From positions 1 through 26,408 of IMG/VR virus record IMGVR_UViG_3300033142_002167: a DNA stretch of 26,408 bases; one strand, given 5' to 3'. The position numbers and the translations under genes are program-made. Below are positions 2,211 to 26,037 of this stretch, piece by piece; position 1 is the first letter of the stretch; the number at the start of each line of letters is the position of its first letter. The notes below the pieces were generated by a model, which was given only the letters and a program-made list of their open reading frames with translations, made no database searches and was not told where the DNA came from. The stretch is from a virus.

Positions 2211-2239
2211 ATTATACGATAATTATTATAAAAAGTTAA
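2211..2239 (-). promoter_or_regulatory. Sigma70-type promoter (P1)
   Basis: On the minus strand TTAACT is followed after 17 bases by TATAAT, about 20 bases upstream of the membrane-protein start. The -35 box overlaps the helicase stop codon. The string TATCGTATAATATAATA and the GTTAAC box are shared with the promoter at 7581-7609 at the same spacing. Confidence 0.7.
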
Positions 2240-5200
2240 CTATTATTTTTTCTTTTTTTCATATATATTTTGTAATCTTGTTGATTTTTAATGCCCAAGG
2301 CATATAATTTTTGAGCTTTTACTCTGCCTATTCCTTTAATTTTAACCAGTTCTACTAAATAATCTTGAATACCATATTTAATACGTAAATTCCAGACCTT
2401 TAACTTATTGTTATTCCAGTGTTTAGTGCATTTAGATTTCATCAATTGCAATGTTTGAAAAATTCTATCACAATCATATTTTATCTGCCTTGCAAGCATT
2501 TCTGAATTTTTTTCTTGAGTTCCACGTAATAATATATAAATAATTGCGCCGTAAATATCTCCTTGACTTTCTTGTAAATCTAACTCTTTGATTTTATTAG
2601 TATATCTGCATACTTCAACTGCTATTTCATTTGGAACATATGGCAAACCATATGATGTATTATGAGTCAATGCCCAGCTTATTGAAGCATCATCAAAAAG
2701 CTTTCTTTTGAATATCTCATTAAAATTTGAATACCATGCATAAATATCATAAGGATTAAAATACATCCAAGATGATATGAGTCCGAGTTGATTAATAACA
2801 AATTTGCCATTCTTTTCTTTTATTATTTTCATACTAATCAGTGTATTGATAATGTTTTCAAGTAGTTGACTGTCTAATTTTTTGTTTTGTAAATAAGCTA
2901 ATGATCGGCTAAACCATTGTTTACATGAGTCTAAATCAGTTATTTCTCCGCCAGCTATTTCTGCCGTTATATGAAATGCCAAATTATACTTGTTATTAAG
3001 ACATGATTCGATATCTCTCATGTTCTCTATTTTGGCTTTATAGGCGTTTATTTCTCTACTTGGTGTCAATATATAGGCATCACCTTTATCGTCTAATCCT
3101 AGTCGTCCTGCACGTCCTGTCTCTTGTATTATATCAAGCTCAGATACCTGTTTCATGCCTCTATGCCAGCCAAAGATAATAACTCTTCGAGCAGGGAGAT
3201 TGCAGTTATGAACCAATACATTATTTGCAATATAATTAGAATTATTATTAATATTTAAATCATAAACTTTTTCTTTAGTTTTTTTGATTTTAATATTTTT
3301 TATTTTACACCAAGCAATATTATCAGAAAACAAAAAATTAATTAAAGAATATTTTGAAAATCCATATGTTTTTAATTTATTTATTGTAATTCTCATAGGA
3401 TGTCTTTTAAAATTATATATATTTTTTGTAAAGAAAAAAATATTTCTATATACAGATGCGGGAATATTTTTTTCTTTCTGATAATATTTTAATCTTTTAC
3501 CAATGGGAATAACATCAATTCCTCCTTTTCCTAAATGTATATCACTTTTATTGATACATTCTTGCAATATATTTTGTTTTCTTTTTAATTTAAATCCTAT
3601 ATGTTGATGGAATAGGCGAACATTTTTTCCATATATTTTAATTCTAAATGATTGCTTATTTTGAATAATTAAATTTTTAAACTTAACTTTTCTTCCTTTT
3701 TGTTTATGCAAAGTCGATATTATATTAAATCTTAATAATGCAAATTGAACCTCTTTTAATAAATCTAAACTTATACTTGTTAATTCAATTTTATAATTAT
3801 TATTGTCTTGTTTCCATATGCATCCATCAGTATCAAATAGTGCTTGTAAAAATAATGATAAATATTTATTATTTTCAAAACAAAATTTGGGTATATGTAA
3901 TTCTATTTTACGCTGAGATTTCATATGTGGTTTAATTAATTTAGTTACACATTGTGCTCCTGTAGCAAATTGCATGACACCATCTTTATTCTTTCTACTT
4001 TTTGGAGCATCATATCCTGTTATTTTTTTTATTAATTTTCTTATTCTAATATCCATTGATATATCGTTTGGAGAAAAGGTCAATCCTGTTATTAAACATT
4101 TTGAATGTTTATTGAAACTAAGATATCCATCTCCAAATATTAATCCTAATAATTCAGATAAATATATTTTATGCAATTCCATAGAATGATTAATAAAATT
4201 ATATTTAGTCGGTATAGGTATTAGATCGTTAATTTTTAAATTTTTTGCTTTTTTTAAAATTAAATTATTATTATTAATAACATAAAAAGGATGATCTAAT
4301 GAGCATGATAATTCATTACCAATATTAATGTTAATATTAATTTTCTTGTCAATAATTTTTGTTATTATATTTTTAACAATACCTTTTTCTATATTTCCAT
4401 TTTTTGATATTGTTGTAATTTCATCATTTTTTATTATATTTTTAATCTTTTTAAATGTTCCGTTCCACATAGATATATTAGTATGATTTGCAAAACATCC
4501 ATAGGCAATTGTAGATGTTGCTATTAAAACACGCAAATCACTTTGTTTAAATAAATTTTCTATATTGTTTCTTTCTTTTAATGTCAAATTTGCATTATGG
4601 AAATCACATGCTATTCCATTATCAAGTAATTGTTTTTTAACATATCTTCCTTCAGATTTAGAATGTACAAATATAAGAAATTTATCATTAACATAATTCA
4701 TAATTAATTGTAAAGTTTGAGAAAATTTATTTTCTTTAGATCTTTGAAAAGTAGATGTTTGATATGGTACATAATGAATATCTAATTTAGTAGGTCTCCA
4801 AGTAGAATAAATTAATTCTGTATCTTTTTTATTTAAAATAGTTAACCATCTGCATAATTCTTTAACATTCGGCATTGTAGCAGATAATAGCATTATTTTT
4901 GCTTTTTTATTATTTTTAGAAAATCGCATCAATCCAGCTTCTAAGCGATCTCCTCTCGTATTAACATTGCTTGCATTATCTTCTTCATTTTCATATCCAG
5001 ATGTAATTAAATGAGCCTCATCAACAATTACTGCCCTAACACTTTTCATCCATTTATTTTTATCAGATTCAATTTTCCTAGTTTTACTATCTAACATTTC
5101 ACTTGTCATGCAAATTATATCTGCTTTTTGTAAATCTTCTGCTTTTGTATTATGAAAATCACCTGTTAATATGGCTACATTATATTTACTAAATGTATGC

Positions 5201-6171
5201 TTTTCATTTGTCCAACTATTATATTTTTCATTTGATAATGCTTTTAGCGGAGACATATAAATTACTTTTTTACCCTTTGACAAAATATATCCCATTATCA
5301 TTTCTGCGCAAATTGTTTTTCCTGAACTTGTAGGTGATGCCAATACTATATTTTTTTTATCTTTATAATGATCATATATTATTGACTGAATAGGATTAAA
5401 TTTTTTAAAAGAATATTTAACATATTTATATTTATCAGTAGAAATAATTTTAGCAGCTTTACTTTCTTTTATAGCTGTTTGTATTTTATATGATCGATTA
5501 ATTTCTTTTCTTCGTTTATCTATAATATATTGTAGCTCTTCATTTGAAACTTTTTCTTTTGTGGGAACAAAACCAAACATATTTATTTGTTTTTGAAATG
5601 TGCCAAATCCTTTTGGATTAATTCTGCCAATAACATATGCTAATTGACTATCACTTAATTTTCCTTTTGCATTTAATTGACTCAATAAACTTTGAGCAAA
5701 TTTATTATATCTTAATTGTGAATGAGAAAGTATTCTTTTAGCTAAAGACATTTTTGAATTTGTATTTTCTCTACATACTTCTTTAGACGTATCAGATAAT
5801 GCAGATAAATAATTACAATTTAAGCAAGCAAAAAAATTATAAGATTGATCTTTAGGATGATATTGTAAAAGTATTGATTTACATTTAGGGCAGGATTTTA
5901 ATTTAACATTTATTAATTCTTTTATATTACTTTGTATTATATAATCAATATGTCGTTGATTGGTAATTATTTTTTGAGATAAAAAAATAAATTTTTTTGA
6001 TACAATATCACGCAGCCCATAAATAATTTCTTGGTCTGATGATAAAAATATGCATATTTCTGCTATTTTATTTTTAGTTGCAATAATATAGGAAAGATGT
6101 CCATTTATATTTTCTTTAATAAATTGTAAATTATTATTTATTAATATATTTTCAAATTCTTGAATTTTCAT
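2236..6171 (-). CDS. Ski2/Hel308-like superfamily 2 helicase interrupted by an intein
   Basis: 1311 aa precursor, about 880 aa after splicing. The N-terminal ~240 residues carry a four-Cys zinc ribbon (CPKC at 94-97, CLNC at 116-119). The helicase core has a Walker A motif SPTSSGKT (279-286), VDEAH (383-387), SAT (430-432), motif V TSTIAYG-CNLPA, split by the intein at 559-989, and motif VI QETGRAGR. A helix-hairpin-helix near the C-terminus (KIKGIGRVKAQKLYALGI) fits the Hel308/Ski2-like group. Expected role: ATP-driven 3'-5' unwinding in replication restart or repair, or RNA unwinding. It starts three bases after the stop of the uracil-DNA glycosylase gene, in one unit with that gene and a DNA methyltransferase. 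Activity requires splicing, because motif V contacts nucleic acid and ATP. Confidence 0.92.
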   Translation of the reverse strand: MKIQEFENILINNNLQFIKENINGHLSYIIATKNKIAEICIFLSSDQEIIYGLRDIVSKKFIFLSQKIITNQRHIDYIIQSNIKELINVKLKSCPKCKSILLQYHPKDQSYNFFACLNCNYLSALSDTSKEVCRENTNSKMSLAKRILSHSQLRYNKFAQSLLSQLNAKGKLSDSQLAYVIGRINPKGFGTFQKQINMFGFVPTKEKVSNEELQYIIDKRRKEINRSYKIQTAIKESKAAKIISTDKYKYVKYSFKKFNPIQSIIYDHYKDKKNIVLASPTSSGKTICAEMIMGYILSKGKKVIYMSPLKALSNEKYNSWTNEKHTFSKYNVAILTGDFHNTKAEDLQKADIICMTSEMLDSKTRKIESDKNKWMKSVRAVIVDEAHLITSGYENEEDNASNVNTRGDRLEAGLMRFSKNNKKAKIMLLSATMPNVKELCRWLTILNKKDTELIYSTWRPTKLDIHYVPYQTSTFQRSKENKFSQTLQLIMNYVNDKFLIFVHSKSEGRYVKKQLLDNGIACDFHNANLTLKERNNIENLFKQSDLRVLIATSTIAYGCFANHTNISMWNGTFKKIKNIIKNDEITTISKNGNIEKGIVKNIITKIIDKKINININIGNELSCSLDHPFYVINNNNLILKKAKNLKINDLIPIPTKYNFINHSMELHKIYLSELLGLIFGDGYLSFNKHSKCLITGLTFSPNDISMDIRIRKLIKKITGYDAPKSRKNKDGVMQFATGAQCVTKLIKPHMKSQRKIELHIPKFCFENNKYLSLFLQALFDTDGCIWKQDNNNYKIELTSISLDLLKEVQFALLRFNIISTLHKQKGRKVKFKNLIIQNKQSFRIKIYGKNVRLFHQHIGFKLKRKQNILQECINKSDIHLGKGGIDVIPIGKRLKYYQKEKNIPASVYRNIFFFTKNIYNFKRHPMRITINKLKTYGFSKYSLINFLFSDNIAWCKIKNIKIKKTKEKVYDLNINNNSNYIANNVLVHNCNLPARRVIIFGWHRGMKQVSELDIIQETGRAGRLGLDDKGDAYILTPSREINAYKAKIENMRDIESCLNNKYNLAFHITAEIAGGEITDLDSCKQWFSRSLAYLQNKKLDSQLLENIINTLISMKIIKEKNGKFVINQLGLISSWMYFNPYDIYAWYSNFNEIFKRKLFDDASISWALTHNTSYGLPYVPNEIAVEVCRYTNKIKELDLQESQGDIYGAIIYILLRGTQEKNSEMLARQIKYDCDRIFQTLQLMKSKCTKHWNNNKLKVWNLRIKYGIQDYLVELVKIKGIGRVKAQKLYALGIKNQQDYKIYMKKRKNNS
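3205..4497 (-). mobile_element. Intein with LAGLIDADG endonuclease in helicase motif V
   Basis: 431 residues, from C559 (CFANHTNISMWNG) to N989 (VLVHN), followed by Cys as the +1 nucleophile. N-terminal Cys, a block B-like SLDHPFYV, and block F/G with terminal HN are all present. Two dodecapeptide motifs, LLGLIFGDGYLS and LFLQALFDTDGCIW, each keep the catalytic Asp, so the homing endonuclease may be active. Removal restores AYGCNLPA, where relatives usually have Val at the Cys position. Confidence 0.93.
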
Positions 6172-6735: not shown

Positions 6736-7536
6736 TTATTTATTAGATTTTTCCCTTTTACCAATTTTAATTCTTTCTTTTGCTATTTTAATATATTCTT
6801 TATTAATTTCAAATCCTATAAAATTTCTATTATTTAAAACGCACATTTTTGCTGTAGTACCCGAACCCATAAATGGATCAAGCACTAGATCGTTTTCATT
6901 AGACCAAGATAATATATGATCTTGAACAAGTTTCTCAGGAAAAGTAGCAGGATGCTTAAAAGCTATTTTATCCTGAGATGAATGATTATAGCCGACATTA
7001 TATTTCCAAATATTCCATTTACTTCTTAATGGTTTATTTCTTTTGCCTTTAATTTTGGTTGTAGTTCCGTCAACATTACGCTGTGTTGATCCTTGACTTT
7101 TATATCCTTTAGTTGGTTCTTTTAATAAATTAGTTGTTTTTGGTTTACTTTTTGATAAAATAAACATATATTCAAAGCATTGAATGTATGTTGTTTGTTC
7201 TGGAAATGGCATTGCATTTTTTTGATATATCATTGTATCATGAAGATTAAATCCAATTTTTTTAAAATATAAAGCATGTCTAAAAGAAGTTCCAGATTCG
7301 CTACCTTTTGTTACTCCATCTTTAATTATCCAAACAACTATTCCACCCTTTTTTGTAACTCTGTATAATTCTTTAGCTATTTTTTTAAAAATTTTGAAAG
7401 TAAATTTACTTTTATTATCATAATTTCTAATTTTATCATAAGGCGGTGATGTAACTATTAAATCTATAAAATTATCAGATAAACGTTTTAAACCTTTTAA
7501 ACAATTACATTTATATATTTTATTTATTTTCATCAT
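6736..7536 (-). CDS. Orphan DNA methyltransferase, beta class (N4-cytosine or N6-adenine)
   Basis: 266 aa. The catalytic motif IV (DLIVTSPPYDK) lies near the N-terminus and the SAM-binding motif I (LDPFMGSGTTAK) near the C-terminus, followed by FIGFEINKEYIKIAKERI. This order defines the beta class of amino-methyltransferases; TSPPY favours N4-cytosine but does not exclude N6-adenine. No restriction enzyme gene is adjacent, so it is probably an orphan enzyme for self-protection or regulation. It is the first gene after the promoter at 7581-7609. Two ATGs (7536 and 7533) are possible starts; no strong Shine-Dalgarno is visible. The low-complexity linker between the motifs probably holds the target recognition region. 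Confidence 0.9.
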   Translation of the reverse strand: MMKINKIYKCNCLKGLKRLSDNFIDLIVTSPPYDKIRNYDNKSKFTFKIFKKIAKELYRVTKKGGIVVWIIKDGVTKGSESGTSFRHALYFKKIGFNLHDTMIYQKNAMPFPEQTTYIQCFEYMFILSKSKPKTTNLLKEPTKGYKSQGSTQRNVDGTTTKIKGKRNKPLRSKWNIWKYNVGYNHSSQDKIAFKHPATFPEKLVQDHILSWSNENDLVLDPFMGSGTTAKMCVLNNRNFIGFEINKEYIKIAKERIKIGKREKSNK

Positions 7537-7612: not shown

Positions 7613-8164
7613 TTATTTTAAAGAATTTATTTGGTGAGAATAGGTTTTGAATGATTGATTTGCTTGATCTTTTGCAGATACTATGAAATTATTTTTTATA
7701 CTTGGCCATTTGATATCGAGACTTATATCTGCCCAAAAAATACTATTTTCATGTTCAATAGAATGATAATTATCAACTTTATACATAAATATAGAATCTT
7801 CAATTGCCATAAAACCATGAGCAAACCCTTTTGGAATATACATGGTACATTTATTTTTTTCTGATAATATTATACCTACATGCTGACCAAATGTAGATGA
7901 ATTTTTTCTTAAATCAACAGCAACATCAAAAACCTTACCTTGCACAACTCTTACTAATTTAGCTTGCGCCATTGGTTCATCTTGGAAATGTAAACCTCTA
8001 ATAGTTCCTGCTTTTGAATAACTAATATTATCTTGAAAAAAATTATTTTTTAAACCATATTTTTTTTGATTATACGATTCAAAAAAGAAACCTCTGCTAT
8101 CTTCATATATATCTGGTTTGATTATAATTATATCTGGAATTTTTTTAGAATATTTAATTTTCAT
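7613..8164 (-). CDS. rfbC: dTDP-4-dehydrorhamnose 3,5-epimerase-like protein (RmlC/RfbC family)
   Basis: 183 aa, the family's normal length. Hallmarks are QDNISYSKAGTIRGLHFQ with the catalytic His, a KLVRVVQGKVFDVAVDLR strand pair with the partner Asp, IPKGFAHGF and the conserved Tyr in MYKVDNYHS. The fold is a cupin dimer. Known reaction: epimerises dTDP-4-keto-6-deoxyglucose at C3 and C5 in dTDP-rhamnose synthesis. None of the other three rhamnose genes is here, so it must draw on host intermediates, serve a sugar on the virion, or have another substrate. It lies 6 bases after the FmdB-like gene, at the end of a run of probable structural genes. Confidence 0.9.
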   Translation of the reverse strand: MKIKYSKKIPDIIIIKPDIYEDSRGFFFESYNQKKYGLKNNFFQDNISYSKAGTIRGLHFQDEPMAQAKLVRVVQGKVFDVAVDLRKNSSTFGQHVGIILSEKNKCTMYIPKGFAHGFMAIEDSIFMYKVDNYHSIEHENSIFWADISLDIKWPSIKNNFIVSAKDQANQSFKTYSHQINSLK

Positions 8165-11860: not shown

Positions 11861-12002
11861 ACTTTTTTTAAATAATCAATTATTATATTATTATATATAA
11901 GACAAAAATATAATTGAATAATATGATTATTATAAAACGTAAGCTTTTGAAATTAATAGACTTTCTTTGTCTTGTTTATCGATTTTTTTATTGGAAAATA
12001 CA

Positions 12003-13112
12003 ATGTCATTACCAAAAGGATTTAAACATTCAGAAGAGACTAAGAAAAAAATAGGAAAAGCATCTAAACAATTATGGTTAGATCCTATTTTTAAAGAAAA
12101 AATGTCAGCCAAAAAAAGGGGTAAATCAAATAGTATGTATGGACGAACTCAATCTGAAGAAACCAAAGAAAAAATAAGACAAAAAGCTATTGAAAGAATG
12201 AAAGATAAATCACGTAGAGAACATTTAAGTAAAATAAATAAAGGCAAAAAACATACTAAAGAATCAAAGAAGAAAATAAGTATGGCGCAAATAGGCAAAA
12301 AACACACTAAAGAGTCAAAGGAGAAAATGAGTTTGTCTCATAAAGGCAAAATAATTAGTTTGGAAACACGAGCTAAAATGAGTAAAGCTCGTAAAGGTAA
12401 AAAAATGTCAAAAGAAACTAAAATAAAAATGAGTCAAGCATTAAAACAAAAATGGAAAGACCCAATATATCGTAATAAAGCTATAAATTCTCATCAAGGA
12501 AGAGTATGTTCAGAAGAAACCAAAAGAAAATTAAGTATAGCTAAAAGTGGCAAGAATCATCCAATGTATGGTAAAAAAACGTCTAAAGAAACAAAGAAAA
12601 AACTTAGTGCTAAATTAAGTGGCAAAAATAATCCTATGTATGGCAAAACTCCTTGGAAGGGAAGAAAACATTCCGAAGAAACAAAAAGTAAAATGAGTCA
12701 GTCTGCCAAAAAAATATGGAATGATCCTGAACGTAGAAAAAAAGGATTACAGCAAATAATACGTGCCTTAAAATGCCAAAATCGTTCTCCTAATAAAGTT
12801 GAAAAACAATTAAATCAATTACTTCAAAAATTATTCCCAAATAAATATCAATTTGTTGGTAATTGGAAAATTATTATAGACGGATTTTGTCCAGATTTTA
12901 TTGATAAAAAATCTAAAAAAATTATTGAATTATATGGAGATTATTGGCATAATTTACCAAAAAGAATTGATTGTGACAAACGTCGAGTTATATCTTATAC
13001 TAATCATGGTTATGAATTACTTATAGTTTGGGAACATGAATTAAAAAATATTAAAACACTTAAGAAAAAACTTATTAATTTTATAACAAATAAAAAAATA
13101 TCTATTAATTAA
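12003..13112 (+). CDS. Free-standing homing endonuclease: NUMOD3 repeats plus Vsr-like nuclease domain
   Basis: 369 aa from the ATG at 12003; a TTG at 11967 would add 12 residues but is less likely. Residues 1-260 hold about nine repeats of the type G-K-K-H-T/S-x-E-T/S-K-x-K-I/M-S (NUMOD3), known DNA-binding modules of homing endonucleases. The C-terminal ~100 residues carry DGFCPDFI, IIELYGDYWHN and GYELLIVWEHEL, the PD-(D/E)XK/Vsr-like pattern also seen in EDxHD homing enzymes such as phage I-Bth0305I. It is the only clear complete plus-strand gene and lies between two minus-strand genes, its stop 2 bases from the stop of the 224-aa gene. This is a selfish insertion likely to spread into relatives lacking it. 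Confidence 0.9.
   Translation: MSLPKGFKHSEETKKKIGKASKQLWLDPIFKEKMSAKKRGKSNSMYGRTQSEETKEKIRQKAIERMKDKSRREHLSKINKGKKHTKESKKKISMAQIGKKHTKESKEKMSLSHKGKIISLETRAKMSKARKGKKMSKETKIKMSQALKQKWKDPIYRNKAINSHQGRVCSEETKRKLSIAKSGKNHPMYGKKTSKETKKKLSAKLSGKNNPMYGKTPWKGRKHSEETKSKMSQSAKKIWNDPERRKKGLQQIIRALKCQNRSPNKVEKQLNQLLQKLFPNKYQFVGNWKIIIDGFCPDFIDKKSKKIIELYGDYWHNLPKRIDCDKRRVISYTNHGYELLIVWEHELKNIKTLKKKLINFITNKKISIN
12030..12740 (+). repeat. Imperfect tandem repeats encoding NUMOD3 modules
   Basis: About nine diverged coding repeats with variable spacing. The closest pair, around 12240-12350, shares the string GGCAAAAAACA and most of the following 40 bases. They encode the DNA-binding modules of the homing endonuclease and probably grew by unequal duplication. 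Confidence 0.7.
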
Positions 13113-13114
13113 AA

Positions 13115-13780
13115 TTATTTTTTCTTTTTTCTTAAAGATTTGAGTTTTTGAACAGCATTGTCAATATTTTTACTTGAAGATTTTGATTTAACTTTTATTT
13201 TTTTCTTTTTGATATTTTTAGTATTTAAATCGCTTTTTATAATAGGCATAAATTCTTCTTCTATTGCAACTATATTATCTTTATGCAATGAGTTGTTTTT
13301 ATTTAAATCTTTTTTATTATCTGCAATCGTATTGTTTATAACAGTAGTATTAGTAATTTTTAAATTTTTTAATTTATTCAATATAAGATCTTGAGCTTCT
13401 TGCATTTTAACAATAGATTCTTTTAAATCTTTAACTTCGATTTGAACTTGTTTGGTTTGTTCAGACCCATTAAATTTATTAATTTTTCCTTTTAAAAGCT
13501 GTGCAATATTATCTATTTGTTTTTTTAAAGGATTAATAGATTTGTCAACTGTTTTTTGCATTCTTGCTTTATTCATAATGCCCGCCTTATTGACTATAAA
13601 GTCTTTTTTTATTGTTACTATTCCTTTATTAAGGAACTCATTAATTTTTTTAGATTTTTCAAATTCTTCATCTGTTAAATTAATAGTCCCATTTGGAGGT
13701 ATTTCCTTACATTTTGTTTTAGTTATTTTTAAATCAGTAATAGGTAAATAACTATAACTATTATTTTGAATAGTTTTCAT
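13115..13780 (-). CDS. Lys-rich coiled-coil protein, probable phage protein
   Basis: About 221 aa from the ATG at 13780-13778 (AGAGG 9 bases upstream); the TTG at 13789 touches the Shine-Dalgarno and is unlikely. The N-terminal part (YSYLPITDLKITKTKCKEIP, then TINLTDEEFEKSKKINEFLN) resembles small phage capsid-associated or head-tail domains. A coiled-coil-like segment follows (VQIEVKDLKESIVKMQEAQD) and the tail is extremely basic (KKKKIKVKSKSSSKN...KKKK). It is 40 bases downstream of the gp10-like gene. A virion or DNA-contacting role is inferred from this context. Confidence 0.65.
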   Translation of the reverse strand: MKTIQNNSYSYLPITDLKITKTKCKEIPPNGTINLTDEEFEKSKKINEFLNKGIVTIKKDFIVNKAGIMNKARMQKTVDKSINPLKKQIDNIAQLLKGKINKFNGSEQTKQVQIEVKDLKESIVKMQEAQDLILNKLKNLKITNTTVINNTIADNKKDLNKNNSLHKDNIVAIEEEFMPIIKSDLNTKNIKKKKIKVKSKSSSKNIDNAVQKLKSLRKKKK

Positions 13781-13820
13781 AAAATACAACCTCTTTTAAA
13801 ATTTAGAAAATATTGATTTA

Positions 13821-14276: not shown

Positions 14277-14791
14277 CGACAATCTTTTCCCCAGATTTGA
14301 AATAATTTGTCAGATTCTTTTTGATATTCTAAAGCTATTGTTTTATTTTTAATAACTATTAAATTTTCAGCATTTCTTTTAGTAGCATTTTTAGTAAAAT
14401 TATAACTACCTGTTAAAACTATTTCTTGATCAACCACAATAACTTTATTATGCATTAAGCCACCCTTGCAATCTCTATATAATTCAATATCATGCTGTTC
14501 TAAATATTCATCTTGAGCATAACGATTACCAGCTTGCTGTTTATCTATTAGCACTCTTACTTTAACATCTCTATTTTTTGCTCTTATAATAGCATCAGCT
14601 ATTGATTGTAAAGTTAGGGAATAAATAATGATATCTAATGTTTTATTTGCTTGATCAATATAACTTATTACAATTTCATCACATTTATCTTGTGGCGAAA
14701 AATAAGATTTGATAAATGAATCAGCAAAGCAAATAGTAGTTGATAAAATTAATAATAATATTAATAGTTTAATTTTAAATAATATTTTAAT
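14273..14791 (-). CDS. Secreted phospholipase-D-family nuclease (Nuc-like), probable ATT start
   Basis: 172 aa from the ATT at 14791-14789. Residues 1-23 form a signal peptide (KILFKIKLLILLLILSTTIC-FA). The mature part has SYIDQANKTLDIIIYSLTLQ, a single HKD-type motif HNKVIVVD (114-121) and GSYNFTKNA, as in the single-domain Nuc/PLD endonucleases of about 155-180 residues that dimerise to form one active site. A later GTG (14554) would remove the signal peptide and half the domain. AAGGAG (14804-14799) stands 7 bases before the ATT, and the ATT shares its last T with the TAA stop of the upstream gene (ATTAA). Role: exported nuclease, possibly clearing DNA at the envelope or acting during entry or lysis. 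Confidence 0.8.
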   Translation of the reverse strand: MKILFKIKLLILLLILSTTICFADSFIKSYFSPQDKCDEIVISYIDQANKTLDIIIYSLTLQSIADAIIRAKNRDVKVRVLIDKQQAGNRYAQDEYLEQHDIELYRDCKGGLMHNKVIVVDQEIVLTGSYNFTKNATKRNAENLIVIKNKTIALEYQKESDKLFQIWGKDCR

Positions 14792-14954
14792 TTTGTTTCT
14801 CCTTGATTTTAAATGGACAATTAGGATGTTGATTATTTTTTTGCAAATAGATATCTACACGATCAATAATCCAATAACAATATGCAATTTTAATATTATG
14901 CAAATATTTTATTATAAGAAATGGACAATTTATACATTTGATGCAATTGTGCAT
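14787..14954 (-). CDS. Cys-rich small protein, 55 aa
   Basis: ATG at 14954-14952; stop overlaps the PLD start. The product is MHNCIKCINCPFLIIKYLHN, IKIAYCYWIIDRVDIYLQKN, NQHPNCPFKIKEKQN. Five Cys, four in CxxCxxCP...NCP patterns, suggest a metal-binding knuckle. Only a weak AGAAG lies upstream. The tight overlap with the next gene supports expression. No known family recognised. Confidence 0.6.
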   Translation of the reverse strand: MHNCIKCINCPFLIIKYLHNIKIAYCYWIIDRVDIYLQKNNQHPNCPFKIKEKQN

Positions 14955-16000: not shown

Positions 16001-18898
16001 TTATTTAAAAACTATATCAATAACTTCATCCATAGTTTTAACTGCAATAATTTCAAGACTTTCTTTAATATTGTCTGGAATATCTTTTAAATCTTTTGTG
16101 TTTTTATAAGGTACTATTATTATTTTATTTTTCATACGTTTAGCAGCTAATATTTTTTCTTTTAATCCACCTATGGGCAATACTTTACCTCTTATTGTAA
16201 TTTCTCCGGTCATTGCAATATCTTTGCTGACTGATTTATTAATAAGTGCTGAGATAATTGATGTAGCAATTGTAATTCCAGCAGATGGTCCATCTTTTGG
16301 AGTAGCTCCAGCAGGTACATGAACATGAATATCTTTTTCAAAAAATACTGATTTATCAATTCCTAATTTATCAGCTCTTGATCTTACAAAATTTAAAGCA
16401 ACTTGAGCAGATTCTTTCATAACATCTCCAAGTTTTCCAGTTAATATAACATTGCCTTTCCCATCTAAAACATTAGTTTCTATATATATAATTGCACCAC
16501 CAACTTGAGTCCATGCTAATCCAGTTGATACGCCAATTTCATCTTTATCTTGCTCATCTTCTCTAATAAATTTTAGTGTACCTAAATATTTTTCAATATT
16601 TTTATCAGTAATTTCTACAGGATTATCAAATATTAATAAGTTTTGTTCTAAAACTTCTTTAACTCTTTTTCTGCAAACATTTGCTATTTCACGTTCAAGA
16701 TTTCTTACGCCAGATTCTCTTGTGTAATATTCTATTATACTTTTTATTCCACTAGAATTAAAAGCAATATGCTTATCATTTAAACCATTTTCATTTATTT
16801 GTTTAGATACTAAATAATTTTTAGCTATTTCGAGTTTTTCTAATTCAGTATATCCAGACAATTCAATTATTTCCATTCTGTCTCTAAAAGCAGGTTGAAT
16901 TGGTTCTAATAAATTTGCTGTAGCTATAAACATCACATTTGACAAGTCAAATGGGACATTAAGATAATGGTCAACAAAAGAATTATTTTGTTCTGGATCT
17001 AATATTTCTAATAAAGCAGAAGATGGATCTCCACGATGATCTGAACCAATCTTATCAACCTCATCAATCATAAAAACTGGATTATTTACTCCAGCTCTTT
17101 TAAGTTCTTGAATAATTTTTCCTGGCATAGCTCCAATATAGGTTAATCTATGACCTCTTAATTCTGCTTCGTCTCTAATGCCACCCAATGCTATACGAAT
17201 AAATTTTCTTCCTAAAGCACGAGCAATTGATTTCCCCAAAGAAGTTTTTCCGCAATTATGCACAAAACATCCTGTATGTTGATCTGTCATAATAGCAAAA
17301 TTATTATAAAAATCAACATTTATCATGTCATATACTGGCACAGCTTTTGATAATTTTATAATTTTTATTTTGGTGACAGCATGATTATTATATTTTTTAG
17401 CATTATCATATAATTTTTGTATATCATTTATATGATGATTAATATTGAATTTTTTTGATATAGTTGGGTCCTTAAATAATTTATATTCATCAGCTAATTG
17501 ATGTGTAAAATATTTTCTACCTTCATATGTTATTATTTCTTCATATTTTTCGCATTTTATATTAGAACTAATTTGTCTATTAAGAGGCATTAATGAATCA
17601 CCTATTTTTAAATCTTTTGTTTTTTTAAATACATTATTAATAGTTAGCCATAAATGATCAGGTGTGCATTGATGTTTAAAACCATCTATTTCTATTTCAA
17701 TCAATTTATTAACATATTTTGTTAATTGTACTTTTTTTGCAATAGAAACAGCAGGTTTATTATTGATAATATCCCACGAATAAACACCTATATTGGTATC
17801 TTTATCATTATACATTTGTTCTAATGTTTTTTGCCCATGATCTAGTGTTAATACTTTGGTATTTCCAATAAAACATCCTGGCGGACCTACTAACGCTAAA
17901 ATTGGACTTTTTCCATTTTTATTCATTTGTCTAACAGCTATGTGCTCAAGTATTCTTTCTTTTACTTTTTCCAAGCCATAATGATCTTCATTAAGAATTT
18001 TAGATGCTTTATTTATATCATTATCATCTTCTGTTTTATTATACCATGGAACTGATAATAGCCAGTTAACATAATTCCTTATATTAGCTGCTTCTGCACT
18101 ATCAATTCTCATATTTTCTAATTTTTTAAGTTGTTCTTGAACTTCTTTTTTAGCATCATCAGGCATTTTTGTTTCTTGAAATTTATTATGTATTTCAGAA
18201 CTATTATTGTGAGAATTTAATTCATTGTTAATAGCTTTTAATTGATCTTGAAGATATTGTTTTTTTTGTTCATTATTTAAATTTGGTTCAGCTTCACATT
18301 TAATATTTTTAACATCTTGGTGCGTTTTTGTATTAAGTATGGAATTTATTTTATCAATACATTTTTCTATATTTGACATTTCTAATATTTGCTGTAATTC
18401 TTTAACATCAAGAGGTAAATTTGATATAAGAAAATAAACAAATTCATTAATAGAATTACATTTCTCAAATTTTGTATATAAATCATTCATGTATGAATAA
18501 TTTTGAACTTGTTTTTTAACTTGATCAAATATAAATTTAACTTGTTTTTTATCATCAATAATTTTTTCTGGATATTCCCATACTTCTACTTTAGTAAATG
18601 ATTGTAAATTATTATGATATTTAATTAATCTTGCTTTGGTTTTGCCTTGTAATATAATTTTTAATTTTGTATCTGATACTTTAATAACTTGAACAATATC
18701 GCATACAGTACCAATAGTATAAGTTTTACTCAATATTGATTTTTCTTTTTTTGCTACAATGAATAAAGATTTATTTTTATTTAAAATATTTTCTACAGCA
18801 TTTATAGCATGTTCTTGCTGTATATAAATAGATTTAGATATAAATGGAAATATTACTGTATTAATAGGCAATGCTAAAATTTCAGTAGTCTTTGTCAT
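16001..18898 (-). CDS. lon: ATP-dependent protease Lon, interrupted by an intein
   Basis: 965 aa precursor, 758 aa after splicing, close to normal LonA. The N-terminal substrate domain (about 1-200) is followed by coiled-coil helices (QYLQDQLKAINNELN), then the AAA+ module: the Walker A is split by the intein as GPPG...CGKTS, the Walker B is FMIDEVDKIG, and a sensor region IATANLLEPIQPAFRDRMEII follows. The C-terminal S16 protease domain has the catalytic Ser in PKDGPSAG and Lys in GGLKEKILAAKR. Role: degradation of misfolded or regulatory proteins; a phage copy could remove host regulators. The ATG (18898) overlaps the HNH stop as ATGA, with AAGGAG inside the HNH gene end. Both ATPase and protease sites look intact once spliced. 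Confidence 0.95.
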   Translation of the reverse strand: MTKTTEILALPINTVIFPFISKSIYIQQEHAINAVENILNKNKSLFIVAKKEKSILSKTYTIGTVCDIVQVIKVSDTKLKIILQGKTKARLIKYHNNLQSFTKVEVWEYPEKIIDDKKQVKFIFDQVKKQVQNYSYMNDLYTKFEKCNSINEFVYFLISNLPLDVKELQQILEMSNIEKCIDKINSILNTKTHQDVKNIKCEAEPNLNNEQKKQYLQDQLKAINNELNSHNNSSEIHNKFQETKMPDDAKKEVQEQLKKLENMRIDSAEAANIRNYVNWLLSVPWYNKTEDDNDINKASKILNEDHYGLEKVKERILEHIAVRQMNKNGKSPILALVGPPGCFIGNTKVLTLDHGQKTLEQMYNDKDTNIGVYSWDIINNKPAVSIAKKVQLTKYVNKLIEIEIDGFKHQCTPDHLWLTINNVFKKTKDLKIGDSLMPLNRQISSNIKCEKYEEIITYEGRKYFTHQLADEYKLFKDPTISKKFNINHHINDIQKLYDNAKKYNNHAVTKIKIIKLSKAVPVYDMINVDFYNNFAIMTDQHTGCFVHNCGKTSLGKSIARALGRKFIRIALGGIRDEAELRGHRLTYIGAMPGKIIQELKRAGVNNPVFMIDEVDKIGSDHRGDPSSALLEILDPEQNNSFVDHYLNVPFDLSNVMFIATANLLEPIQPAFRDRMEIIELSGYTELEKLEIAKNYLVSKQINENGLNDKHIAFNSSGIKSIIEYYTRESGVRNLEREIANVCRKRVKEVLEQNLLIFDNPVEITDKNIEKYLGTLKFIREDEQDKDEIGVSTGLAWTQVGGAIIYIETNVLDGKGNVILTGKLGDVMKESAQVALNFVRSRADKLGIDKSVFFEKDIHVHVPAGATPKDGPSAGITIATSIISALINKSVSKDIAMTGEITIRGKVLPIGGLKEKILAAKRMKNKIIIVPYKNTKDLKDIPDNIKESLEIIAVKTMDEVIDIVFK
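17255..17875 (-). mobile_element. Intein in the Lon P-loop (207 aa)
   Basis: Residues 342-548, from CFIGNTKVLTLDHG to GCFVHN, followed by Cys as the +1 nucleophile. A block-B-like CTPDHLWLT and block F VPVYDMINVDFYNNFAI are visible. No LAGLIDADG motif is present. The middle part (YFTHQLADEYK...INHHIND...NNHAVTKI) resembles an HNH endonuclease with its centre deleted. Removal restores GPPGCGKTS, where other Lon proteins usually have GPPGVGKTS. Confidence 0.92.
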
Positions 18899-20925: not shown

Positions 20926-22134
20926 TTAATCTTCTGATTTTAATACATATATAGATTTAATAATTTTATCTATTGTTAATACCTCTTTTAAAATTTTAAT
21001 AATTTTATTACTATCTTTATAAACTTCTGGAGATTCATCAAGTGTTTTAGCAGAAATTGAACTTGACCAAACTCCTTTCATCATTTTTTTAAAATTATCT
21101 AATTTTAATTTTCTTTTGGCATCTCTTCTTCCCATGATTCGTCCAGCCCCATGAGGAGCTGAAAAATTCCAATTTTTCAATTTTTTATTATCTTTTCCCG
21201 CTGCAATTATTATTCCATCTAACATATTCAACGGTATGACAACTTGAGTGTCTTTCATTACTTTTATTGCACCTTTGCGAATTATTTTTTGATCAAAATC
21301 AACATAATTGTGTACTGATTCTATTAAATTTTCTTTGTTAAAATTTATTTTAAAATATTGTAATATTAAATCTAACATTAATAAACGATTAACATTCGCA
21401 AAAGATTGAGCTATTTTCATATATTCTAAATATTGTTTTCCACCAAAATCTATAGGAAGATATTCTAAATCTTGTTCTACATTTATTTTAAATTTTTTCA
21501 TAAAATATTTAGCCAATTCTTGAAATATACAAGCAATCTTATATCCAAAATTTCTTGAACCTGAATGAATTGAAACATATATGTTATCCTCATCATCTTT
21601 TTCTAATTCAATAAAATGATTTCCAGAGCCTAATGTGCCTAATTGACACATAGGTTTTTTAATGTCAAATCTATTAATAGTATTTTTAACAAAACTATGA
21701 TTATGCGTTAAATACATTAATTTATTAAATAATAAACTTTTAAATTCTTCTGGAAATATTATATCATTATATAATTTGTTATTTATTAAGTCTCTATTTA
21801 ATAATTTCATCTGATTTTCATTTCTATGCTTACAGCCCAGAAGAATTGTTTTTCTTATATAATTATCTAAATCTTGAAAATTAACTTTTATTTTTCCTAA
21901 TTTATAAGTAATAATGGCGCATCCGATATCTACACCGATTACATTAGGAATTATTAAATCATTATAAGTAGAGGTGAATCCTATAACACATCCTGTTCCT
22001 TTGTGATAATCAGGCATAATTCTTATTTTTTCTTTTGCAAAAGCTGGATGATCTATCATAGTTTTTATTTGATCAATAGCTGTTTCTTGTATTTCATCTG
22101 TCATTAAAATTTTGTTGTTTCCAAAAACTTGCAT
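20926..22134 (-). CDS. rtcB: RtcB-type RNA ligase
   Basis: 402 aa, typical of shorter bacterial and phage RtcB. Conserved stretches are MPDYHKGTGCVIGFT, VIGVDIGC with the metal-binding Cys, GTLGSGNHFIEL, VSIHSGSRNFG and APHGAGRIMGRRDAKR with the His that is guanylylated. Known reaction: joins RNA 3'-phosphate or 2',3'-cyclic phosphate ends to 5'-OH ends using GTP and Mn2+. In a phage it could reverse host anticodon-nuclease or toxin cleavage of tRNA; no tRNA gene or archease was seen in the window. The ATG (22134) lies one base after the upstream stop, with GGAG inside the upstream gene end. Confidence 0.94.
   Translation of the reverse strand: MQVFGNNKILMTDEIQETAIDQIKTMIDHPAFAKEKIRIMPDYHKGTGCVIGFTSTYNDLIIPNVIGVDIGCAIITYKLGKIKVNFQDLDNYIRKTILLGCKHRNENQMKLLNRDLINNKLYNDIIFPEEFKSLLFNKLMYLTHNHSFVKNTINRFDIKKPMCQLGTLGSGNHFIELEKDDEDNIYVSIHSGSRNFGYKIACIFQELAKYFMKKFKINVEQDLEYLPIDFGGKQYLEYMKIAQSFANVNRLLMLDLILQYFKINFNKENLIESVHNYVDFDQKIIRKGAIKVMKDTQVVIPLNMLDGIIIAAGKDNKKLKNWNFSAPHGAGRIMGRRDAKRKLKLDNFKKMMKGVWSSSISAKTLDESPEVYKDSNKIIKILKEVLTIDKIIKSIYVLKSED

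Positions 22135-24048: not shown

Positions 24049-26037
<1,989 letters not shown>

Follow-up and report, generated by a model that had tools for sequence, protein, structure and literature searches.

A probable ATT start codon in a phage nuclease gene and recurrent ATT/ATC starts in two gene families of related huge phages

Introduction

Where does translation of a phage nuclease begin when no standard start codon is available at the head of its reading frame? The question is raised by a virus record from IMG/VR (26,408 bases, 25% GC), which was analysed at full length and is called the window below. An earlier note had proposed that a PLD-family nuclease in this DNA starts at an ATT which touches the stop codon of the preceding gene, that this is the second ATT start in the window and that this phage uses ATT initiation. 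Here we examined the start site, the encoded protein and its homologues, and the start codons of related phages.

Results

The nuclease frame is located on the minus strand. It is open from 14854 to 14273 and is preceded by a stop at 14855. Neither ATG nor GTG nor TTG is present between this stop and GTG 14554, which is codon 79 after an ATT at 14791-14789. The minus strand at this position reads ...AATCAAGGAGAAACAAAATTAAAATATT... A Shine-Dalgarno (SD) sequence, AAGGAG (14804-14799), is followed by the spacer AAACAAA and, 7 nt on, by the ATT. The SD lies inside the 3'-end of an ORF (14954-14787, minus strand) which starts with ATG and codes for a Cys-rich protein of 55 amino acids; profile searches gave no family match for it. 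T 14789 is the last base of the ATT and the first base of the TAA (14789-14787) of the Cys-rich ORF. This one-base overlap only suggests a stop-start coupling at ATTAA (14791-14787); it would allow a ribosome leaving the Cys-rich ORF to reinitiate at the ATT. At its other end the nuclease TGA overlaps with the ATG of the next gene (14276-13821, minus strand) as ATGA. That gene is conserved in 46 related huge-phage loci.

SD pairing at the nuclease ATT was -8.5 kcal/mol, and only 1.7% of 1786 minus-strand ATT/ATC sites pair as well or better. Within the window this SD belongs to the better third of genes, i.e. it is good, not exceptional. The minus strand has 18 copies of AAGGAG, nine of them 3-12 nt upstream of gene starts (two ATT starts included), and the plus strand has two. 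The leader region contains 20 near-cognate codons, of which a single one, ATA 14785, matched the ATT in pairing energy. It follows two codons after the ATT and, at 13 nt, is too far from the SD. The overlap of two ORFs in different frames by a single base could also mean that the nuclease is produced by a frameshift from the Cys-rich ORF and not by initiation at the ATT. This is very improbable: a +1 (or -2) shift would be needed at CAA-AAT-TAA where no known slippery motif is present, the signal peptide would be buried in a fusion protein, and a well-placed SD exists.

Read from the ATT, the nuclease has 172 amino acids (14791-14273, minus strand). It has a PLD domain (PF13091, E=4.5e-29, 101.4 bits vs. 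a curated cut-off of 27) with a single HxK(x4)D motif, H114/K116/D121, all three residues of which were invariant in the family alignment. The protein missed the cut-off of the NCBIfam equivalog NucT (58.9 bits vs. 297). The N-terminus is (M)KILFKIKLLILLLILSTTICFA-DS... By inspection it contains a signal peptide, MKILFKIKLLILLLILSTTICFA, with a basic N-region, a hydrophobic core (LLILLLILSTTI, mean hydropathy 2.84) and an AxA-like C-F-A end. The leader is in frame from the ATT, as had been claimed, and the first standard start is 79 codons on. Judged by this signal peptide, the destination of the nuclease would be the periplasm. Because the phrog_12711 profile matched from position 3 to 160 of 162, aligned to nuclease residues 5-163, a leader of such length appears to be usual in this phage family.

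The earlier note held that evidence for a start at GTG 14554, or relatives with an ATG at the ATT site, would speak against its proposal. In frame, no standard start codon precedes GTG 14554; use of this GTG would leave the upstream frame untranslated and result in a protein of 93 amino acids lacking a signal peptide. Such a product would have lost the invariant residues F31, P33, Y57, I64, A71, R74 and V76 and half of the domain, and the Pfam PLDc_2 match begins as early as residue 42. Therefore, a start at GTG 14554 is extremely improbable. The best viral homologues were from GC-rich phages, several of which also carry a volactin-like gene. The closest phage homologues start with ATG and have no signal peptide, so their ATG marks a different site. 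A standard start was present in 71 of 71 PLD relatives checked, and none of the homologues checked shared the leader. Single-protein scans of viral_contigs gave no close relative of the nuclease or of the Lon-like protease in the window (16001-18898, minus strand), which has an apparent, intein-like in-frame insertion (GCFIGNTKVLTLDHG ... CFVHNCGKTSLGKS). Frame, SD, leader and context thus back the ATT, and the nuclease seems to start at 14791-14789 as proposed.

Is this start unique in the window? When frames lacking a standard start were scanned for an opening near-cognate codon with a good SD, two genes emerged, the nuclease and an FmdB-like gene. The latter (8563-8171, minus strand) codes for a zinc-ribbon protein of 130 amino acids (TIGR02605, 37.3 bits vs. 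a cut-off of 31.3; PF09723). FmdB proteins begin with MPxYEYxC and ATT 8563-8561 falls on this Met; an alternative ATT is at 8569-8567. The SD, AAAGGAGG (8580-8573, minus strand), pairs with -15.3 kcal/mol, the strongest in the window. Most likely, ATT 8563 (or ATT 8569) is the first ATT start which the earlier note had counted without naming the gene; family evidence for ATT 8563 is strong.

ATT is one base away from ATG, and the window is a single metagenomic record for which no near-identical relative was found. ATT 14791 may have arisen from an error of sequencing or assembly, or by recent mutation if the gene is decaying. We consider this improbable. The nuclease frame is intact with all catalytic residues present, and the second ATT start of the record is matched in independent relatives; for one of these, several assemblies show the same ATT. 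Errors at exactly the start codons of the PLD and FmdB genes would be a coincidence.

Approximately 30 other genes of the window start with ATG or TTG. In a DEAD-box helicase gene (2236-6171, minus strand) the coding sequence is split by an intein which carries a LAGLIDADG domain (Pfam intein_splicing, residues 567-989). The sole long plus-strand ORF (11967-13112) has repetitive KHTKESKEKMS motifs and is homing-endonuclease-like; it sits between the volactin gene and 13115-13789, and its homologues are found elsewhere in some related loci. A response-regulator GGDEF-EAL protein (309-1997), a dTDP-sugar-epimerase-like protein (7613-8164), RtcB (20926-22134) and an NAD-dependent DNA-ligase-like protein (24049-26034), all on the minus strand, are encoded on this one 26-kb phage fragment.

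The phage clade was identified with the volactin-family actin-like protein of the window (11771-10752, minus strand; PF25216, E=9.8e-69) as a query. The scan yielded 80 loci, some on contigs of 200-485 kb, and two further scans were added. The gene order volactin, 464-aa gene, FmdB is kept in related loci. In the loci from all scans the start was read as the codon aligned with the first residue of the family, so homologues support its position in both genes. First codons of FmdB (n = 78) were ATG (50), GTG (12), TTG (6), ATT (8) and ATC (2), i.e. 10 of 78 were ATT/ATC. In the 464-aa family (n = 85) we found ATG (42), GTG (22), TTG (6), ATC (11) and ATT (4), i.e. ATT/ATC in 15 of 85. No other first codon occurred in either set, and starts of tblastn matches, for which no residue was imposed, comprised only the same five codons. 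The predicted N-terminal Met peptide of one ATT/ATC start is, e.g., MPIYEYHCDNCNLVF. A weak start codon is not required, as ATG or GTG is found in the majority of members in both families. GTG/TTG use was higher in these two families than in other genes (36% vs. 21%, p=0.004).

Twelve of the 25 ATT/ATC starts have no standard start upstream in frame or within 12 codons downstream. These strongest cases are the 464-aa genes of L170, L175, L183, L207 and L148 and the FmdB genes of the window, L144, L256, L276, L277, L127 and L152; in each, 12 codons or more separate the site from the first standard codon downstream. The remaining cases are weaker, with a possible alternative start nearby or upstream. 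The alleles of L114/L115 and L154/L155 were found again in independent assemblies, and the same ATT locus was seen in several of them. The codon preceding the ATT/ATC was considered as a possible true start, but it varied (GTC, GCC, ACC and others) and was not consistent. An in-frame fusion of the 464-aa gene and FmdB in L114/L115 was dismissed as well: the frame of the former stops at 7108, ahead of the FmdB frame. The base before the start was C in 18 of 25 ATT/ATC cases and in 21 of 92 ATG cases.

The ATT/ATC starts were selected by homology, regardless of the SD, yet their SD pairing was far stronger; therefore, they are not due to chance. The median was -10.7 kcal/mol compared to -6.75 kcal/mol for ATG starts with both families taken together (p=6e-8; FmdB, p=4e-5; 464-aa family, p=3e-4), p-values which are optimistic as the rows are kin to one another. 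Trees required at least 11 and at least 5 changes of start-codon state on well-supported branches. The 464-aa gene of L148 starts with ATC and that of its close relatives L142 and L145 with ATG, with the same AGGAGGTG beside the start. L148, L142, L145 and L153 represent a natural ATC/ATG swap next to a conserved SD.

What is the 464-aa protein? In the window its gene (10437-9043, minus strand) starts with ATG. It had no Pfam match. The predicted structure was partly of low confidence (pLDDT 68.8, pTM 0.56); its best Foldseek matches were phage necks (E=2.2e-7 for the phage 812 neck, and 7.7e-7; probability 1.00). The predicted fold resembles phage neck and tail-terminator proteins (812 neck 8q01/8qkh, E217 8fvh, lambda gpU 3fzb), whereas sequence identity is only about 9-18%. 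By analogy with the matched structures six copies would be located at the head-tail joint. Because such proteins form six-fold rings, few copies would be needed, which may be a reason for weak initiation.

Is ATT initiation then a property of the whole phage? The earlier note had suggested surveying all genes of the genome for family-supported ATT starts. A count of SD-anchored codons over all clade sequence, made irrespective of homology, suffered from too much noise in GC-rich loci and a homology-based survey was used instead. This survey covered 750 conserved genes from 76 non-redundant loci and flagged 16 of them because no standard start was present at the conserved N-terminus. After inspection only the FmdB and neck families and the window nuclease were convincing. 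Thus the survey did find family-supported starts, and they were not spread over other genes. The notion that this phage uses ATT initiation is supported as a real lineage trait, as attested by the 25 starts in relatives; as a general habit it is not supported, with standard starts in approximately 30 other window genes and recurrence concentrated in two adjacent families. By this sequence survey ATT initiation is gene-specific, not phage-wide.

This bears on an overall relaxed start selection in phage or host, by an altered initiator tRNA or an IF3 variant, under which ATT would be tolerated anywhere and carry no gene-specific meaning. ATT/ATC starts in three different genes of the lineage, and the many tRNA genes in records G030 and G019, would be in line with it. 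However, no IF3 gene was detected in 30 clade records, some of which are fragments; tRNAs in two large records had ordinary anticodons and seven of nine records showed no tRNA. GC content, and presumably hosts, vary widely across the clade, and the cases without a standard start cluster as described. We consider relaxed selection unlikely. As a cause of the ATT/ATC starts neither IF3 nor odd tRNAs were found in the clade records searched, which may be incomplete. In a 411-kb relative (the record of L207) at least 30 tRNA genes are accompanied by a tmRNA gene (L319:2147-2534, tag ANDNAALPLAIAA).

Most matches in a volactin scan of genome contigs were on haloarchaeal chromosomes, and some were on MAG contigs of Planctomycetota. 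In nine of the loci (the seven best and two from Archaeoglobaceae) no homologue of FmdB or the neck gene reached its start.

Discussion

The data argue that the nuclease ATT is probably translated, as one of several ATT starts in a huge-phage lineage which pairs a poor start codon with a strong SD, likely for low output. ATT 14791 would be decoded as formyl-Met by the ordinary initiator tRNA, with initiation on a good SD at the stop codon of the Cys-rich ORF. In particular genes the lineage would repeatedly exchange ATG, GTG or TTG for ATT or ATC, combined with a strong SD. The likely effect in vivo would be a low output, sensitive to host IF3, of proteins which may be needed in few copies: the six-copy neck part, the small zinc-ribbon protein and, in the window, the nuclease with its presumed export.

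Low expression is suggested by precedents. In S. aureus cvfC1 (AUU) and ccpN (AUA) an extended SD supports about 10% of the output of AUG (PMC13009471). These Bacillales genes likewise have a conserved non-canonical start with an unusually strong SD, and cvfC1, which is part of an operon, also codes for a putative zinc-finger protein of small size (PMC13009471). Yet they are bacterial chromosomal genes; here, ATT/ATC starts are found in other gene families of metagenomic huge phages and are repeatedly switched with ATG/GTG/TTG. Expression of infC (ATT start in E. coli, ATC start in Streptomyces) and of sigR (GTC) is held down by IF3 (PMC5472188). The isoleucine-codon start is common to infC and the phage genes, the IF3-dependent low expression is that of infC (PMC5472188). 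In contrast, infC is autoregulated by its own product, and the phage records searched gave no IF3 gene. By analogy with infC or cvfC1, the best reading is that a weak start is combined with a strong SD to keep output low. Reinitiation in polycistronic mRNAs is sensitive to IF3 (PMC2268962). There, the start codon touches the upstream stop as in ATTAA 14791-14787, although the studies were done with AUG in an M13-derived junction (PMC2268962). In RcsD-Hpt AUU is functional in place of AUG, the effect of AUG being stronger, but this is an internal start in a bacterial signalling gene (PMC10191623). In the open-access literature, the part covered, no description of phages with recurrent ATT/ATC starts was found.

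We tentatively propose, at somewhat less than even chance, that the lineage sets the dose of low-copy proteins (neck, FmdB-like and sometimes others such as the nuclease) by ATT/ATC starts and a compensating strong SD, tied to the IF3 level of the host. Gene callers accept only ATG, GTG and TTG; consequently, genes with ATT/ATC starts are shortened or missed and N-terminal leaders, here the signal peptide of the nuclease, vanish from the annotation. The lineage would offer natural ATG/ATC swaps by the dozen, with which the discrimination of start codons by IF3 could be studied. If ATT/ATC starts recur in a gene-specific manner in the structural operons of phages, they would represent a new means of setting stoichiometry and timing.
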